A stretch of 64,000 nucleotides of DNA from Pedobacter sp. SYSU D00535 (lineage in GTDB: Bacteria; Bacteroidota; Bacteroidia; Sphingobacteriales; Sphingobacteriaceae): contig NZ_JAFEWD010000003.1 in NCBI RefSeq assembly GCF_017355855.1, forward strand, positions 186,001 to 250,000, in the 5' to 3' direction. The notes beneath the pieces are model-generated. The model searched no databases. It saw nothing but the letters and a program-made list of their open reading frames with translations, and was not told the DNA's origin. Below are positions 48,498 to 59,880 of the stretch, in pieces. The position numbers and the translations under genes are program-made. The first letter of the stretch is position 1. Each line of letters opens with the position of its first letter.

Positions 48498-51400
48498 ATG
48501 AAGTTACCTTTGCGAAAGTCCTCCATGAAGGGTAAGACTTTAATGGGCCAGAGCGCTCCATTACTTTTTGCCCTGCTGTTGCCAATAGCGTCCTCCGCTG
48601 TTGAAGGCAATTCCAGTCTCAAACTGATGGCAAAAGTTGCCGTTCAGAAAAACCAGGTCACAGTAAGTGGGACCGTAAGAGATAGTAAAGGCACACCATT
48701 GCCGGGCGTAACGGTCAGAGTGAAGGAGACCGGAAAAGCAACGAGCACGAATGTTGACGGACTTTTCCGTATCGAACTACCAAACGGCACTGAAACCCTT
48801 CAATTCAGTATGCTGGGCTTTGTAACTAAAGAAGTCAAGGCCGAAGGAAGGAGCACGATAGATGTGACACTCGAAGAGTCCGCCTCTACACTGGACGAGG
48901 TGGTGGTAATCGGCTACGGGACGGTCAAAAAGAGAGATCTCACCGGATCGGTGGTTTCAATTAGAGAAGCAGATATTACCGCTACCCCGGTGAATAATAT
49001 CATGGAAGCCCTGCAAGGAAAAATTGCCGGAGCTGACATCATGCGTAGTTCGGGTGCGGTAGGTACTAACGCCAGCGTGTTGCTCCGCGGTACCCGCAGT
49101 ATCTATGGCGACAACTCACCTTTATACATAGTGGACGGGATTCCTTCCACCTATTCCCAAATCAACCCTTCAGATATTGCAAGTATCGACGTGTTGAAGG
49201 ACGCTTCTTCCACCGCTATTTATGGATCAGCGGGTGCGAACGGAGTAATCATCATTACCACTAAGAAGGGTAGGGAAGGGAAGTCTTCTATTGACTTCGA
49301 TATGTTCTACGGCTTCAACGGTCGTCCGCATTTCTATAAAGGGATGACCGGACAGGAATACACCGATTATCGGAGAGAGCTTTACCGTACCACAAACGGC
49401 AACTATCCTGCAGATATGTCGCTGGTTTTCACTAACAGCGATATTCTAAACGCCTACAACGAGGGTAAGTGGATCGACTGGATTGATGAAATTACCAGCA
49501 CAAGTGGGGTTCAGGAGAAGTACAATCTGTCGTTCAGCACGGGAGTGAAAAAGACGAAAGTATATAGTTCCTTCACCTATACCAATGAGGGAGGCTTGCT
49601 TCCCCGTGAAAGCCAAAAGATGGCGGGTTTCCGCTTGAACCTCGATCACGAACTGCTGAAGTGGGCAAAGGTGGGGACTAATGTCAATGTGAACTATACC
49701 AACAGGAACGCCAGAAACAATAACATTTTCACTAAGGCACTGGGCGCCTTTCCGTTGGGAGAGGTTCGCGATGCCGATGGAAATATTAATGCTCAATTTA
49801 TCGACGGCGAAGTTACCCCGCTGGGTGATGAGATCCCTGATCAGTATGCTGACAATACCAGGTCAACCTTTGGATTTTTGAACACTTATGTAGAACTGGC
49901 GCCTTTGGCAGGCTTGTCTTTACGGTCTAATATCGGCTTAACCCTTAATAGCAGTCGTCAGGGCCGCTATTTCGGAAGGCAATCGACGGCACTCCCACCC
50001 TCAGGATACGCGCTTCCGGTGGCCACCCTCGATAATTACTTCGGTTATGGCTATGTGTGGGAAAATACACTGACCTATAACAGAACGATTGCCACTGATC
50101 ATAATGTTACCCTGACCGGAATTACCTCTTACGCAGACAGCCGCTTCGATCGGAATAATTCGCTGGGACAGGGCCAGGATTTAGATTACTACCTTTTCTA
50201 CAACATTGGTACGGGCACCCAGAAAACCGGCATCGCTTCTGCTTATCAGCAAAAAAATCGCTTGTCTTTTGCCGGAAGGATGAATTATTCTTACAAGGGC
50301 AAGTACCTGTTTTCATTCACCAACCGCTGGGACGGCGTATCGCACCTGGCCGAGGGGCATAAGTGGGCTTCCTTCCCTGCAGCATCAGCCGCGTGGCGGA
50401 TTTCTGATGAGAACTTCATGTCAGGGGTAAGAGGAGTAGTTAGCGACTTGAAACTGCGTGCAGGATACGGTGTAACAGGTAACTCCGGAGGTATGGATGC
50501 CTACTCGTCACAAACCCAGGCCTATGCTTATCAGGTAATTTCGTTAAACGGAGCCCTGGTTCCTAACCTGCAGAACGTGGGTACTTTCTCGAACCCGGAA
50601 ATCACCTGGGAGAAGAGTTACAACCTGAATGTCGGACTTGATCTCTCAGTGCTGAAGGACCGCATCAGCCTTTCGGCCGATGTGTACAACACGGATACTA
50701 AAGGACTTCTCTTCAGACGTACCCTGCCTGTTACGGCAGCCATTACTGCCTGGGCTTCTCCAATGCAGACCTGGCAAAACATTGGCGAGACCAACAACAG
50801 AGGCTACGAGCTTACTTTGAGAACGGTGAACATCGATAAGAAGGCCTTTAACTGGAGTTCAAACTTCTCTTTTACCAGAAACAAGGAGAAGATCGTAGAT
50901 CTGCCTAACGGTGATGTAATATCTGAAAGACTGTTCGAGGGGCATCCCATTCAGACCTTTTATGATTACCGCTATCAGGGCATTTGGTCAATGGACGAGG
51001 CAACAGAAGCAGCAAAATATGGAGCTCAACCGGGCTACGTAAAGGTGGCTACTAATGAGAAGTTTACAAACGGAGTAGGAGACGGCGGAGCTCATCCATA
51101 CACGGACAGCGATCGGATGATCCTTGGATCCAATGTGCCTAAATGGTTACTGGGAATAAACAACACAATCACCTTCAAAAACTTTGACCTGAACGCCTTC
51201 GCGATGATACGCTGGGGACAGATGATCAACAGCTCGCTGCTGGGCTGGTACAGGGCGAACGATGACGGTCAGCCGGCTGGGGTAGATTACTGGACGCCAG
51301 AAAATCAGTCAGCCTACTTCCCACGTCCGGGTATCGCCAGCACTTCCGGTATCGGGTCTTTGAAGTATGTTGACGGATCCTTCGTGAAGCTAAAAACGCT

Positions 51401-51596
51401 GACATTAGGATATACACTGCCAGAGAAGATCAGAAGTGCGGCTTTCATGTCTAATGCCCGGATTTATGCTACCGCTTATAATCCACTCGTATTTACCAAA
51501 GAAGAAAAGTTGAAAGGTACCGACCCGGAAAACAATGGATCTGATACCTTCCCATTGTACCGAACTTTTGTATTAGGCCTTAATGTTTCTTTTTAA
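48498..51596 (+). CDS. SusC/RagA-type TonB-linked outer-membrane protein
   Basis: 1032 residues. The signal region is long (about 1-36). The carboxypeptidase-like domain is at about 53-130 (VSGTVRDSKGTPLPGVTVRVKETG), then LDEVVVIGYGTVKKRDLTGSVV. The plug (LQGKIAGADIMRSSGAVGTNASVLLRG, PLYIVDGIPS, SSTAIYGSAGANGVIIITTKKG) and a barrel ending LGLNVSF follow. It forms a transporter with the SusD-like lipoprotein that follows. No glycosidase or FecR gene is adjacent, so the substrate is unknown and may be peptide or glycan. Confidence 0.92.
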   Translation: MKLPLRKSSMKGKTLMGQSAPLLFALLLPIASSAVEGNSSLKLMAKVAVQKNQVTVSGTVRDSKGTPLPGVTVRVKETGKATSTNVDGLFRIELPNGTETLQFSMLGFVTKEVKAEGRSTIDVTLEESASTLDEVVVIGYGTVKKRDLTGSVVSIREADITATPVNNIMEALQGKIAGADIMRSSGAVGTNASVLLRGTRSIYGDNSPLYIVDGIPSTYSQINPSDIASIDVLKDASSTAIYGSAGANGVIIITTKKGREGKSSIDFDMFYGFNGRPHFYKGMTGQEYTDYRRELYRTTNGNYPADMSLVFTNSDILNAYNEGKWIDWIDEITSTSGVQEKYNLSFSTGVKKTKVYSSFTYTNEGGLLPRESQKMAGFRLNLDHELLKWAKVGTNVNVNYTNRNARNNNIFTKALGAFPLGEVRDADGNINAQFIDGEVTPLGDEIPDQYADNTRSTFGFLNTYVELAPLAGLSLRSNIGLTLNSSRQGRYFGRQSTALPPSGYALPVATLDNYFGYGYVWENTLTYNRTIATDHNVTLTGITSYADSRFDRNNSLGQGQDLDYYLFYNIGTGTQKTGIASAYQQKNRLSFAGRMNYSYKGKYLFSFTNRWDGVSHLAEGHKWASFPAASAAWRISDENFMSGVRGVVSDLKLRAGYGVTGNSGGMDAYSSQTQAYAYQVISLNGALVPNLQNVGTFSNPEITWEKSYNLNVGLDLSVLKDRISLSADVYNTDTKGLLFRRTLPVTAAITAWASPMQTWQNIGETNNRGYELTLRTVNIDKKAFNWSSNFSFTRNKEKIVDLPNGDVISERLFEGHPIQTFYDYRYQGIWSMDEATEAAKYGAQPGYVKVATNEKFTNGVGDGGAHPYTDSDRMILGSNVPKWLLGINNTITFKNFDLNAFAMIRWGQMINSSLLGWYRANDDGQPAGVDYWTPENQSAYFPRPGIASTSGIGSLKYVDGSFVKLKTLTLGYTLPEKIRSAAFMSNARIYATAYNPLVFTKEEKLKGTDPENNGSDTFPLYRTFVLGLNVSF

Positions 51597-51612
51597 CTCA
51601 AAAACAATAGCA

Positions 51613-53433
51613 ATGAAATTCAAAAAGATAATCCGAAATATATCCTTTGCACTGATCACCGCTGGTCTGTCGGCCTGTGACACCTCTCTTGAAGAATATA
51701 ATCCCTCCGGTTTCACGATGGAAGCGGTGGCGAAATCTTCAGTGGATGGCTACAAGAAGATATTGAACAACTGTTACTTCGGCATGGAGCGGCAGTTATA
51801 CGGCTTCAACCAGTGGATGATGTTCACCGAGGCGGGAACTGATATCTGGACCAATCAGAAAAACAGCCCGACGTCTAATATTAACTTTTTTAAGTACGGA
51901 GGAGCTTCGAATATTCCAGCCAACACATTGAACACTGTGTGGAATGTATGTTATGATGGGATAGGTTATTGTAACCTGGCCATTAAATACGCCGACATAG
52001 CTCCCTTCAAAACGGAACAGGAGAAAAACGCTTTGGTAGCACAGGCCTATTTCCTGCGTGCCATGTACTACTACAATCTGGTAGAGCAATTTGGTGGAGT
52101 CACAGCTCCTACTGAGCCCCTGGCTACGGTAAATCTTCGTCCGGAGCGCGTTGCTCCCCTCGAAATCTATAAAACCATCATCATTCCTGACCTAGAATTT
52201 GCTGCACAATGGCTGCCGGTGAATAACGGAATTACCTCTCCGTCTAAAAAGTCGGCGATGGGCTTCCTTGCAAGAGCTTATCTGCAAACGGTGGAGTATG
52301 ATGATACAAAAGCATTTGCACCGAAAGCGTTGGAAGTTGCAAAAACCCTTATTCAAGATTGCGAGACTGGAGGCTCTACTTACAACACCTTCATGTATCC
52401 AACCTTCGACGAGGTGTTTCGGGAGTCAAACAATCTGCAAAACAGGGAGTCATTGTGGTCACACCGCTTTGTAGTAGGAGGGGTAAGCAATCAGGCCTGG
52501 TTCATGAATATGAATAACGAGTTGTTCTATGCCGTGGTTACTGATTTTCCTGCTATGCAGTTTTCAGGTGCCGACTACACTACCTGGGGCCGCCGTTCCG
52601 GGGGAAGCTTTATGCCATCGCACCACTTGCTAAGCTTGTACGTGCAGGCGGATGGTACACTGGATCCCCGCTATCATAAGTCTTTTCAAACCACCTGGAC
52701 AGTGAACCGCCCCTCTTTCACCTGGAGCAGTGCCAATCTTACTACTTTCGACAGAAGTGCGGCAGTTACCACCAGCAGCAGCCTGGCGGCAGGGAATACA
52801 GCGATCGACTTTATTCATCCGAATGATCCTGATTACACGACAAAGGCTGCAACAAAGTTAGACCAGAAATATCTGGTGGTAGATTATAATGACGTGTATG
52901 ACCCGGTTACCAAGACTGTAAAAATGACCTATACGCGGGTTAACAGAGATCCGGGAACCCAGGCACCCAACCCTTTCTTCGGATTTTATCCTTCGCTTAT
53001 TAAACACAATAGCAGCAACTATTACGTGAATAACGCAAATAGCAACCGGTACGGGAATCTTAATGCTACCTTCATGATGCGGATGCCCGAGGTTTACTTG
53101 ATTGCAGCAGAGGCGGATATTTATGCAAATGGTGGTGCAAACGCGATGGGCTACATCAATAAGGTGCGTCAACGCGCAGGTGCACAGCCTTTAACCGGAG
53201 CTGCATCGATGCAAACGGTTCTTGACGAGCGCGCCCGGGAATTGTGTGGCGAGTATGTGCGTTTTTACGACTTGAAACGTACCAAAAACTTAAGCAAGAG
53301 CTATCTTACTCAAACCAACCCGGATGTTGGCCAGTTCTTCAGAGACGGTGTCAACGAAGTGCGGCCAATTCCAACCAACTTCCTCAACACCATTGAAGAG
53401 GGCGGAACATACTACCAGAATAACGGCTACTAA
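51613..53433 (+). CDS. RagB/SusD-family nutrient-binding lipoprotein
   Basis: 606 residues from ATG 51613, which gives a lipoprotein signal (LITAGLSAC, Cys22). A longer frame from 51583 would overlap the SusC gene out of frame and spoil the signal peptide. SusD features: AQAYFLRAMYYYNLVEQFGGV, MGFLARAYLQTVEYDD, MPEVYLIAAEADIYANGG...INKVRQRAG and VLDERARELCGEYVRFYDLKR. It pairs with the preceding SusC-like protein. It is longer than the starch SusD because of an insertion of about 100 residues near 330-470. Confidence 0.92.
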   Translation: MKFKKIIRNISFALITAGLSACDTSLEEYNPSGFTMEAVAKSSVDGYKKILNNCYFGMERQLYGFNQWMMFTEAGTDIWTNQKNSPTSNINFFKYGGASNIPANTLNTVWNVCYDGIGYCNLAIKYADIAPFKTEQEKNALVAQAYFLRAMYYYNLVEQFGGVTAPTEPLATVNLRPERVAPLEIYKTIIIPDLEFAAQWLPVNNGITSPSKKSAMGFLARAYLQTVEYDDTKAFAPKALEVAKTLIQDCETGGSTYNTFMYPTFDEVFRESNNLQNRESLWSHRFVVGGVSNQAWFMNMNNELFYAVVTDFPAMQFSGADYTTWGRRSGGSFMPSHHLLSLYVQADGTLDPRYHKSFQTTWTVNRPSFTWSSANLTTFDRSAAVTTSSSLAAGNTAIDFIHPNDPDYTTKAATKLDQKYLVVDYNDVYDPVTKTVKMTYTRVNRDPGTQAPNPFFGFYPSLIKHNSSNYYVNNANSNRYGNLNATFMMRMPEVYLIAAEADIYANGGANAMGYINKVRQRAGAQPLTGAASMQTVLDERARELCGEYVRFYDLKRTKNLSKSYLTQTNPDVGQFFRDGVNEVRPIPTNFLNTIEEGGTYYQNNGY

Positions 53434-57096: not shown

Positions 57097-57127
57097 TTTG
57101 CAAACCAGAAAAGCAAATCTATATTTG
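57097..57127 (+). promoter_or_regulatory. Consensus Bacteroidota promoter
   Basis: TTTG (57097-57100), exactly 19 bases, TATATTTG (57120-57127): a full match to TTTG-N19-TANNTTTG. The predicted transcript start is about 57131-57134, giving a leader of about 170 bases before the receptor ATG. The palindrome TCTATAGA (57137-57144), within CAAATCTATAGAGT, would lie right at or after +1, a natural place for an operator. Confidence 0.75.
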
Positions 57128-57167
57128 TCTACCAAATCTATAGAGTATATAATAAAAGTAGCTTATA

Positions 57168-57245
57168 ATGGAGAAGTCAATTACTAACATCACCTGTCTT
57201 ACTTATCGTTCAGTCTGTTGTTCGCTGTGTCCTTGTCGGGACTAG
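57168..57245 (+). CDS. Short Cys-rich leader peptide ORF
   Basis: ATG 57168 to TAG 57243-57245, 25 codons. The peptide holds five Cys, four of them in the last nine residues (SVCCSLCPCRD), all encoded by TGT. It starts about 35 bases after the predicted transcript start and ends 61 bases before the TonB receptor ATG. Clustered Cys codons in a 5' leader recall cysteine-responsive leader peptides described for mycobacterial sulfur genes. Here the mechanism would be ribosome pausing when charged Cys-tRNA is scarce. Role inferred from position and composition. Confidence 0.55.
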   Translation: MEKSITNITCLTYRSVCCSLCPCRD

Positions 57246-57306
57246 TGCTCAATGATTCCTTTTAAATTTTTTTCGATCACCCAATCACTTAACAAAAATT
57301 CAAGTA

Positions 57307-59880
57307 ATGAAACGTTTTTCATATGCATTAAAACTGTTACTCCTTATTTCCTTTCTCGGTTATTTTAGTCCCGCAATTGCTCAGCACCTGGTTGTTGGAA
57401 ATGTAAAAGACAACCGCGGACCGCTCGCCGGCGCCAACGTTCAGGTAAGAGGAACCACTATTTCTACCACTACTGACACTGCCGGTAATTTCAAACTAAC
57501 CGTCAATACCGAAACTCCCTTCTACCTGCGGGTAAGTTTTGTTAGTTACAAGCCACAGGACTTCCAGGTGCTTAGGTTTCAAGACGAACCCTTTCAGATA
57601 ACTCTTTTGCAGGACGACCTGTTGGAGGAGGTAGTGGTAACATCCAGACGCCGTTCGGAAGTACTTCAAAACGTGCCTATTCCCATATCGGTAGTGGGTG
57701 GCTCACAGATCGATCAGGCGGGAGCCTTTAATGCCAACCGTGTGAAAGAAATAATCCCTACCGTGCAGCTGTATTCTTCCAATCCACGTAACACGACGCT
57801 GAACATCCGGGGCTTAGGGTCCACTTTCGGACTAACCAATGATGGTATTGATCCGGGCGTAGGATTTTACGTAGATGGCGTCTACTACGCCCGTCCTGCA
57901 GCGGCTACGCTCGACTTTATCGATGTGGAGCGTATCGAAGTGCTTCGTGGTCCGCAGGGAACGCTGTTTGGAAAGAACACCAGCTCCGGCGCATTTAACA
58001 TTGTGACCCGCAAAGCAAGTTTTTCCCCTGCTGCAAGTTTTGAGACCAGCTTTGGTAATTACGGTTATGTGCAGGCGAAAGCATCTGTGACAGGACCGCT
58101 GGGCAGGTATTTTGCCGGTCGTTTATCTTTCTCGGGAACACAGCGCGACGGTCTGATCGAGAACGTGCGCACATTGAAAAACATCAACGACATCAATAAC
58201 CTGGGTTTCCGCGCTCAGTTGCTTTTCCGTCCTACAGACCATCTATCAATTACCCTTGCGGGGGATAATTCCCGCCAGCGTCCCGACGGCTATGCACAGG
58301 TAGTTGCAGGAGTAGCACCCACACTCCGTCCTCAATACCGCCAGTTTAATTCGATCATTGCGGATCTTGGATATTCACTTCCAAGTACCAATCCTTTCGA
58401 TCGTAAAGTAGACCACGATACGCCATGGAATTCCGGAAATGACCTGGGAGGAGTATCGCTGAATGCAGATATCAAAATTGGTCCCGGCACGCTGACATCT
58501 ACCTCTGCATGGCGTTATTGGAAATGGGATCCCTCTAACGACCGGGATTTTACGGGTCTGCAGTCGCTGGCTAAATCGAACAACTACTCCAGGCACCATA
58601 ACTGGTCGCAGGAAATTCGGTATGCGGGAGAGTTTAGTTCGAAGTTAAGTGGGGTGGTAGGCCTGTTCTACATCGATCAGGAAGTACAAACCGATCCGGT
58701 AGCAATCGAAGAATCAGGATCTGCTACCTGGCGTTTCTCGCAAAGTACCACTAGTGATCTGTGGAAAACCCCCGGCCTTTTCGAAGGTTACGGAATCAGG
58801 AACCGCTTTTCCATCAAATCTCTCAGCGCTGCAGTCTTTGCTAACGTCGATTGGGAAGCTACTCCAGGTTTTCACATTCAGCCAGGTATCCGTTTTAATT
58901 ACGATAGAAAGGACGTAGTTTACAACAGAACTACCTACGGAGGTTTGCAAACAAATGATCCCGCCTTGCTTGCGCTGAAAAACCTTATTTATACCAACCA
59001 GGCCTATGAGGCCGATGCAGATGAGGACAACTTTACCTATCAGTTGACGCTGGCTTACAAACCGAATCAGCGCCTGAATGCTTTTGCAACCTACTCGACC
59101 AGCTTCAAACCTATCGGGGTGAATGTTTCTGGTTTGCCAACCATTAACGGAGCAGTGGCCACAGATCTGGCTGTAATTAAACCGGAGGATACAAAGCATT
59201 ATGAAGTAGGTGTGAAAACAAATCCTACAGATTATCTGACGTTCAACGTAACACTTCATAATTCAGATATTGACGACTACCAGACTAACGTGCAGTCGCC
59301 GGAGATCGGCGTAAACCGTGGCTACCTCGCTAATGCCGAGAAGGTCAATGTAAAAGGAATTGAGATTGATGCCAACCTGAGGGCGGGCCGTCATTTCTCT
59401 TTCTTCGGAGCTGGTGCCTATACCGATGGGAAGTACGTACGCTTTACCAATGCGCCGCTTCCGCTGGAAGAAACAGGACTGACCGTGGATGGAAAGCAAG
59501 TAGCATTTAAGGACATTTCAGGAAGCCGCCTGCCGGGTATTTCTAAATGGGCCGGATCATTAGGAGGTGAGTTCACTACTCCGGCGAAGCTTTTCGAACG
59601 CGAGTCTAAATTCTTTACCGCTCTTGATGCTTCTTACCGCTCTGAATTTTCTTCCAGTCCATCACCTTCAGCCTACTTGAATATCGATGCTTATTCTCTT
59701 GTCAATGCAAGAATTGGCTTTAGATCAACTACCGGCTTGTCTGCCTATCTATGGGCCCGCAACCTGCTCGATAAAAACTACTTTGAGCAATTGCTGCCGG
59801 CAGGCGGTAATGCAGGCCATTATGCGGGAGTACTTGGGGATCCGCGTACCCTCGGTCTGACTTTAAGATACGTTTTATAA
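57307..59880 (+). CDS. TonB-dependent receptor behind a Cys-rich leader
   Basis: 857 residues. Signal peptide about 1-25 (ending AIAQ), a short carboxypeptidase-like domain (about 28-105), then LLEEVVVTSRRRSEVLQNVPIPISVVGG, the start of a classical TonB plug (NTTLNIRGLGSTFGLTNDGIDPGVGFYVDGVYYAR; VLRGPQGTLFGKNTSSGAFNIVT). The barrel ends LGLTLRYVL. The PQGTLFGKNT type is common in receptors for small hydrophobic or siderophore-like ligands, unlike SusC proteins. No SusD partner is present. If the leader senses cysteine, the cargo may be a sulfur compound; that is inference. It has its own terminator. Confidence 0.9.
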   Translation: MKRFSYALKLLLLISFLGYFSPAIAQHLVVGNVKDNRGPLAGANVQVRGTTISTTTDTAGNFKLTVNTETPFYLRVSFVSYKPQDFQVLRFQDEPFQITLLQDDLLEEVVVTSRRRSEVLQNVPIPISVVGGSQIDQAGAFNANRVKEIIPTVQLYSSNPRNTTLNIRGLGSTFGLTNDGIDPGVGFYVDGVYYARPAAATLDFIDVERIEVLRGPQGTLFGKNTSSGAFNIVTRKASFSPAASFETSFGNYGYVQAKASVTGPLGRYFAGRLSFSGTQRDGLIENVRTLKNINDINNLGFRAQLLFRPTDHLSITLAGDNSRQRPDGYAQVVAGVAPTLRPQYRQFNSIIADLGYSLPSTNPFDRKVDHDTPWNSGNDLGGVSLNADIKIGPGTLTSTSAWRYWKWDPSNDRDFTGLQSLAKSNNYSRHHNWSQEIRYAGEFSSKLSGVVGLFYIDQEVQTDPVAIEESGSATWRFSQSTTSDLWKTPGLFEGYGIRNRFSIKSLSAAVFANVDWEATPGFHIQPGIRFNYDRKDVVYNRTTYGGLQTNDPALLALKNLIYTNQAYEADADEDNFTYQLTLAYKPNQRLNAFATYSTSFKPIGVNVSGLPTINGAVATDLAVIKPEDTKHYEVGVKTNPTDYLTFNVTLHNSDIDDYQTNVQSPEIGVNRGYLANAEKVNVKGIEIDANLRAGRHFSFFGAGAYTDGKYVRFTNAPLPLEETGLTVDGKQVAFKDISGSRLPGISKWAGSLGGEFTTPAKLFERESKFFTALDASYRSEFSSSPSPSAYLNIDAYSLVNARIGFRSTTGLSAYLWARNLLDKNYFEQLLPAGGNAGHYAGVLGDPRTLGLTLRYVL

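Follow-up and report, generated by a model that had tools for sequence, protein, structure and literature searches.

A cysteine-codon leader and a shared palindromic operator upstream of a TonB-dependent receptor in Pedobacter suggest two layers of sulfur control

Introduction

Cysteine leader peptides have been described in Actinobacteria: in the accessible parts of the reports, they were predicted in 2005 in front of cys operons, with Rho as a possible output (PMC1262725), and the poly-Cys short open reading frames (ORFs) of mycobacteria are supported by ribosome profiling (PMC4633059). Here we describe a short ORF with clustered cysteine codons in front of a TonB-dependent receptor gene in a member of the Bacteroidota, Pedobacter sp. 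SYSU D00535. The stretch of DNA analyzed (hereafter, the window) is 64,000 nucleotides long (contig NZ_JAFEWD010000003.1, positions 186,001 to 250,000, assembly GCF_017355855.1) and lies on contig C13 of the 4.9-Mb Pedobacter genome.

According to the available sections of its description, CruR, a DUF2946 protein of 145 residues that carries CXXC and RAPP and is predicted to be exported, serves as a copper sensor and acts through early Rho termination (PMC9426467). CymR, a regulator of the Rrf2 family, is tied to cysteine and sulfate genes in Firmicutes (PMC5015018), and the available text on Flavobacterium psychrophilum describes leader-peptide attenuation of amino-acid operons, cysteine being unmentioned in that text (PMC9723704). 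Among the matches listed in our literature searches, in which subscription papers are thinly covered, there were no published cysteine leaders of Bacteroidota or Flavobacterium in connection with TonB receptors, sulfur starvation or Rrf2/CymR, and the matches listed for cysteine attenuators in general contained no Bacteroidota case. In Escherichia coli, a ribosome held near the end of the short TnaC ORF keeps Rho off the transcript, with free tryptophan and the nascent peptide causing the stall. Canestrari 2020 is said to be a functional study of the mycobacterial cysteine attenuators, and its title reportedly calls these ORFs leaderless.

Results

A short ORF with clustered cysteine codons precedes the receptor

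The region upstream of the receptor holds the following features, given with what each rests on:

57097..57100, + strand: TTTG, which we take to be the -33 element of a Bacteroidota-type promoter; read from the sequence
57120..57127, + strand: -7 element TATATTTG, 19 bases past the -33 element; read from the sequence
57128..57144, + strand: operator TCTACCAAATCTATAGA, consensus TCTAY-N7-RTAGA, which includes the TCTATAGA palindrome; ortholog upstreams and cysH boxes
57168..57245, + strand: leader ORF of 25 codons, MEKSITNITCLTYRSVCCSLCPCRD; ORF list, equivalents before orthologs and an alignable same-genus leader
57216..57236, + strand: cysteine-codon cluster with TGT at 57216, 57219, 57228 and 57234, a predicted ribosome pausing site; cysteine enrichment in ortholog leaders
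57246..57306, + strand: 61-base spacer with 13 C and 4 G, a candidate Rho-loading stretch; composition and folding scans
57307..59880, + strand: TonB-dependent receptor of 857 amino acids; ORF list and Pfam domains

An earlier note on this DNA had described the promoter, the palindrome and the leader ORF. The promoter is present as described, with TTTG at 57097-57100 separated by 19 bases from TATATTTG at 57120-57127, and the leader at 57168-57245 indeed opens with ATG, runs for 25 codons, and stops 61 bases ahead of the receptor ATG; its five TGT codons lie at 57195, 57216, 57219, 57228 and 57234, four of them in codons 17-23. The TCTATAGA palindrome that the note had placed at the expected transcript start is likewise there (57137-57144), and we reassign it to the right part of the 17-bp operator TCTACCAAATCTATAGA. 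This operator lies directly against the -7 element and would span the position at which transcription is expected to begin. The leader ORF would begin about 30 bases inside the transcript. In several relatives, a TAnnTTTG similar to the -7 element also lies near the operator box.

Cysteine clusters recur upstream of orthologous receptors

Orthologs of the receptor (E <= 1e-80) are present in 92 of 201 genomes of the same family, and the upstream regions of 88 of these were examined, leaving out G162, G168, G183 and G198. To count as a leader, an ORF had to begin with ATG, span 4-60 codons, lie no more than 300 bases upstream and have at least three cysteines in six residues. By this definition, 35 of the 88 orthologs carry a cysteine-cluster ORF upstream, compared to 0.6 in dinucleotide shuffles and one on the antisense strand. 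Their ends vary (...LCCCCC, ...LCCGCCR, ...NRCCC, ...SYCCCSHSKTVIEYFRTSH, MNRIIHSSSPCCCCCCVSCN), and the peptide words SVCC and CPCR, for which the earlier note had proposed a check of conservation, are not conserved; what recurs is the cysteine cluster. In a second set of 80 named loci, with the same definition applied over 350 bases, leaders were found in 28, including loci of Daejeonella, Desertivirga, Mucilaginibacter, Chitinophagaceae, some Flavobacterium and others. In Flavobacterium, most rows fall below the leader threshold, but many of those carry a leader of some 36 residues roughly 45 bases before the receptor, its C-terminus being MCMCW or a related sequence.

Combining both sets and removing 4 of 168 upstreams as repeats left 164 distinct receptor upstreams. 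Cysteine clusters occur in 58 of these compared to 1.48 expected from shuffles, a 39-fold excess that is the highest of all residues, and methionine clusters follow with 19 compared to 1.43 expected (13-fold), while the excess stays at or below 2.8-fold for the remaining 18 residues. A leucine leader in another frame of TGTTGC repeats was considered and rejected, leucine clusters being seen 48 times with 39 expected. The clusters are also rarer at the other genes of the receptor loci: leaders precede 24 of the 74 receptors with a free upstream region but only 7 of 552 other ORFs of the same 80 loci, and these seven include one ORF of the PAPS-reductase family (cysH), one sulfite/nitrite reductase and one TonB receptor. 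We observed a rare cysH bearing its own Cys/Met leader, MEQKQNIIITSIMRCMCKQCAGCC (L193 628-1359).

The leader of a same-genus relative aligns to the window leader with a score of 37, which was reached by 4 of 2000 shuffles. In two leader alignments the cysteine columns are invariant while TGT and TGC replace one another in four of the five, and the median ratios of nonsynonymous to synonymous change (dN/dS) are 0.46 and 0.64; one of the 13 rows in the first alignment (L021) is no true member. Alignment A1 was made without L022, which has a stop in the receptor frame, and one leader-region alignment covers 9 of 12 leader regions. The cysteine cluster is often at or near the end of the short ORF, and in genus group g13 it lies about 14 codons before the stop. 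The recurrence of the leader is not a matter of chance.

As a side observation, all 12 g13 rows (L078, L083, L084, L085, L093, L094, L095, L097, L099, L101, L104 and L113) keep CGA ACG (Arg-Thr) after the cysteine cluster with no synonymous change, as might be expected of an RNA element or of an arrest motif. In the Pedobacter genome itself, three cysteine codons followed by a stop occur at 38 places compared to 18 in a reversed control; on inspection, not one of the 38 proved to be a convincing leader that opens with ATG and precedes a gene.

The operator is shared between receptors and cysH

The box TCTAY-N7-RTAGA is present exactly in 58 of the 164 receptor upstreams compared to 0.2 expected from shuffles, and within one mismatch in 128 compared to 5.9 expected. 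At other genes the corresponding numbers are 19 and 50 of 563, some of the 19 exact boxes belonging to genes that run divergently from the receptor and have their upstream region in common with it. The box stands in reverse orientation in some relatives and therefore fits a DNA site.

Across 61 genomes, allowing one mismatch, we found 26 box places compared to 6 in the reversed control. Judged by sequence, the genes downstream are cysH in eight cases, TonB receptors in 11, a periplasmic-binding-like protein in two and nothing sensible in five. A cysteine leader accompanies the box at 8 of the 11 receptors (one with only two cysteines) and at both binding-protein genes, and at none of the cysH genes. 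In L141 and L142, the box and a leader ending in MQRCCCM precede a gene that is weakly periplasmic-binding-like (in L142, PBP_like_2, below cut-off). cysH was further scanned in 30 of the 80 genomes with a cysH match; a looser box pattern is found at 16 of these 30 loci, namely the 15 closest and one other, the operon-head status of the rest being unchecked. The TCTATAGA palindrome is therefore conserved as part of an operator common to receptors and cysH in relatives, and a palindromic operator common to sulfur genes is what a regulon of Rrf2/CymR type displays. Alignment of receptor and sulfate-assimilation upstreams, as the earlier note had proposed, thus bore out the recurrence of the Cys-rich ORF at receptors and extended the operator to cysH, whereas the leader did not extend to cysH.

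At least five loci of Chitinophagaceae have a second full operator between the leader and the receptor, located 37-60 bases before the start (L161, L165, L188, L193 and L203).

Sulfur genes surround the receptor loci

Neighboring genes in the 80 named loci were grouped into families, one representative of each being checked in Pfam, so that names such as cysN, cysD and cysH are a reading of those families. Near the receptor, 30 of the 80 loci have an Rrf2 gene, the representative of which was assigned to Rrf2 by Pfam, and in 22 of them it is directly upstream on the same strand, all in Flavobacterium. Other neighbors are TauE/SafE (19 loci), siroheme methylase (9), cysN (7), the sulfite-reductase flavoprotein (6), and cysD, cysH and the sulfite-reductase hemoprotein (5 each). 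The Pedobacter genome has two Rrf2 genes, with 47% and 24% identity to the Flavobacterium Rrf2, and the closer one adjoins a gene with siroheme-synthase and TauE domains.

A second box-bearing receptor of the same genome, a SusC on contig C12 (L067 48-9771), has a leader ending in MCCCN and is followed by SusD, two membrane-like proteins that have no Pfam match, a cytochrome c and a molybdopterin oxidoreductase, which we read as one of sulfite-oxidase type. When 30 of 41 match rows of this SusC type were scanned, cysteine leaders were found in 11 of the 30 loci, the Pedobacter locus included. This locus is a candidate for a second sulfur-scavenging system.

The window receptor itself comprises CarboxypepD_reg-like, plug and beta-barrel domains (Pfam). 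The only solved relatives found by sequence at E <= 1e-8 are the pesticin receptor (over 159 residues) and the enantio-pyochelin receptor (over 208 residues), so the cargo is not given by sequence. Regulation and gene context suggest that it may be a sulfur compound. Two orthologs of the receptor, L013 and L022 (G097, G110), each contain one in-frame TAA. Upstream in the window, on the same strand, lie a SusC-like ORF of 1032 amino acids and a SusD-like ORF of 616 amino acids (48498-53433), both named by sequence likeness.

A model with two layers of sulfur control

From the operator, the leader, its codon bias and the gene context, all of which are observed, we consider it probable that the receptor is under two-layer sulfur control, by an Rrf2-type operator and by a Cys-codon attenuator (Cys and Met in Flavobacterium). 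In the first layer, a CymR-like repressor of the Rrf2 family would occupy TCTACCAAATCTATAGA over the transcription start when sulfur is ample. In the second, the transcript would begin with the 25-codon ORF, packed with cysteine codons at its end. With charged Cys-tRNA in ample supply, the ribosome would complete the ORF at 57245 and depart, and transcription would break off early; the simplest route to this would be Rho, loading onto the 61-base spacer, which is G-poor and unstructured. With Cys-tRNA scarce, the ribosome would pause at the cysteine codons and cover the spacer, and the receptor would be made. That transcription starts there, that Rrf2 binds, and that the leader is translated with pausing on its cysteine codons are all predictions. 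Codon hunger is a better fit than either metal binding at a defined site or arrest by a fixed peptide, because the spacing and context of the cysteines are variable and methionine rises jointly with cysteine. In Flavobacterium, where the leader ends in MCMC(W), methionine would probably be read too, and pairing of the Cys/Met codons with the bases before the receptor start would provide a second coupling of pausing to expression.

Regarding the output step, a scan for terminator-like hairpins found no intrinsic terminator in the window leader or spacer. In 11 close leaders, G makes up 3.5% of the last 60 bases before the receptor compared to 14.7% in 105 control upstreams (p ~2e-7, with related rows and crude start calls in the controls), while C is at 22% compared to 19%, and the Pedobacter genome encodes Rho. 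In Flavobacterium, base pairing between the Cys/Met codons and TACTAATCACATATA, directly ahead of the start, gives a 14-pair helix in 12 rows and reaches a z-score of -2.5 or lower in 12 of 15 related rows (mean -3.46). The TACTAATCACATATA element also resembles a second operator; it may act by pairing or by operator binding. Averaged over the 45 rows outside Flavobacterium, which include the window, pairing is absent (group means -0.16 and -0.27): in g13, an 8-pair version of -2.7 kcal/mol has no excess over shuffles (mean z -0.27). A start-sequestering hairpin was sought in the window and not found, and no known riboswitch is present in the 8 loci searched, where Rfam gave no match except tRNA.

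Several results weigh against this model. Rows in the ortholog sets are related, so their counts are not independent events, and at the threshold used 53 of the 88 same-family orthologs have no leader, which consequently was gained, was lost or is too degenerate to see. Exact cysteine spacing is not conserved among orthologs, the longest cysteine run of the window leader is two, and no leader precedes cysH in any of the 30 cysH loci despite the operator in 16. Within the Pedobacter genome, a box search allowing three mismatches gave 30 places compared to 24 in the reversed control, and therefore only the best places count; these are the receptor (0 mismatches), cysH-cysD-cysN (1) and the second receptor, SusC (2). 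Because the search barely beats the control, the 2-mismatch box of SusC carries little weight alone, and two further 2-mismatch places make no sense. As to the output, the G-poor spacer fits Rho loading by its base composition, and a start region that is simply unstructured would give the same picture. The 204-base leader region of the window folds less well than its shuffles (z 1.35), and no pairing is seen between its cysteine codons and the spacer (z 1.66); the hairpin seen in Flavobacterium is therefore no model for the window. The 14-pair Flavobacterium helix has no compensatory change, no pair being altered on both sides. In one available passage citing the mycobacterial study, the mechanism is described as translation attenuation (PMC13236596), which counts against the Rho step.

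The earlier suggestion of a Cys-sensing leader on an importer is nonetheless supported by the recurring leaders, the shared operator and the sulfur neighbors; it does not extend to the many orthologs that lack a detectable leader, nor to cysH.

Discussion

The most serious alternative is that the leader is a metal-sensing nascent peptide, like CruR for copper, and that the receptor imports a metal. Cysteine and methionine are both copper ligands, and the window leader has CSLC, a CXXC pattern. In Bordetella, the accessible part of the CruR report describes a copper-responsive upstream ORF that governs a TonB receptor (PMC9426467). The window leader has no Pfam match and hence no DUF2946, has 25 codons rather than 145 residues, and contains no RAPP; cysteine spacing ranges over CCCCC, CCSLCPC and MCMCW, which suits codon counting over a single binding site, and the operator and neighbors are those of sulfur genes. 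Metal sensing is thus unlikely, and copper sensing was rejected as the principal reading, given the missing DUF2946 and RAPP and the sulfur context.

A leader might instead only boost translation of the receptor by ribosome delivery or re-initiation, its cysteines sensing nothing, and a general role of this kind has been proposed for leader ORFs in the available part of one report (PMC4833913). Such a booster would not need cysteine codons, and the enrichment concerns cysteine and methionine only and is seldom seen at the other genes of these loci, which makes this explanation very unlikely. We find it highly improbable that only the Rrf2-type operator matters and that base composition or repeats gave rise to the ORF incidentally: the operator does stand close to the start with no leader at cysH in close relatives and at some receptor orthologs (L156, L157), but cysteine clusters number 58 compared to 1.5 expected, leucine shows no such excess, and the invariant cysteine columns undergo synonymous TGT/TGC switches. 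That the ORF encodes a Cys-rich product, such as the precursor of a methanobactin-like metallophore reimported by the receptor, is scarcely credible, for although small Cys-rich precursors adjoin TonB receptors at methanobactin loci and the Pedobacter genome encodes one protein of the MbnB/TglH/ChrH family, its gene (G000:C12:497452-498069) is on contig C12, far from the receptor on C13, no maturation enzyme was found among the 11 neighbor representatives scanned (most neighbors being unscanned), and the leader sequence outside the cysteine cluster differs widely between groups.

Returning to sulfur control by operator and attenuator, cysteine-rich leaders are, judged by sequence, a class found in several Bacteroidota families. 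We lean toward the view that Bacteroidota have their own class of Cys (or Cys and Met) attenuators that gate outer-membrane sulfur importers and are stacked on an Rrf2 operator, with a lineage-specific output step: a G-poor spacer, probably with Rho, in Sphingobacteriaceae, and pairing or a second operator in Flavobacterium and Chitinophagaceae. If so, a Cys-codon leader together with TCTAY-N7-RTAGA would be a sequence sign of sulfur importers in a phylum with many receptors of unknown cargo, codon-based cysteine sensing would extend beyond Actinobacteria, mostly to import rather than biosynthesis, and joint reading of cysteine and methionine would be suggested.

The closest described systems resemble this one in part. 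As in the actinobacterial Cys attenuators, a short ORF with cysteine codons near its stop precedes sulfur genes; those attenuators have no conserved terminator hairpin, and Rho was proposed as one possible output. They differ in phylum, and the leaders described here precede mostly outer-membrane receptors and hardly ever cysH, are joined to an Rrf2-type operator, and include methionine codons in Flavobacterium. Unlike the leaderless mycobacterial ORFs, the ORF here would begin about 30 bases into the transcript. CruR shares with the window a cysteine-containing upstream ORF before a TonB receptor, whereas the window leader has 25 amino acids and neither DUF2946 nor RAPP; CruR has CXXC, and the CSLC pattern of the window leader is not kept as such in orthologs with plain cysteine runs. 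As with CymR, a gene for an Rrf2-family regulator is linked to sulfur targets, at which it would bind; the phylum is another one, the leader layer is additional here, and to our knowledge the CymR operator differs from the operator seen here. As in TnaC, Rho would be denied access to the downstream transcript by a ribosome stalled close to the end of a short ORF; in contrast to TnaC, codon hunger is the proposed cause of the stall.

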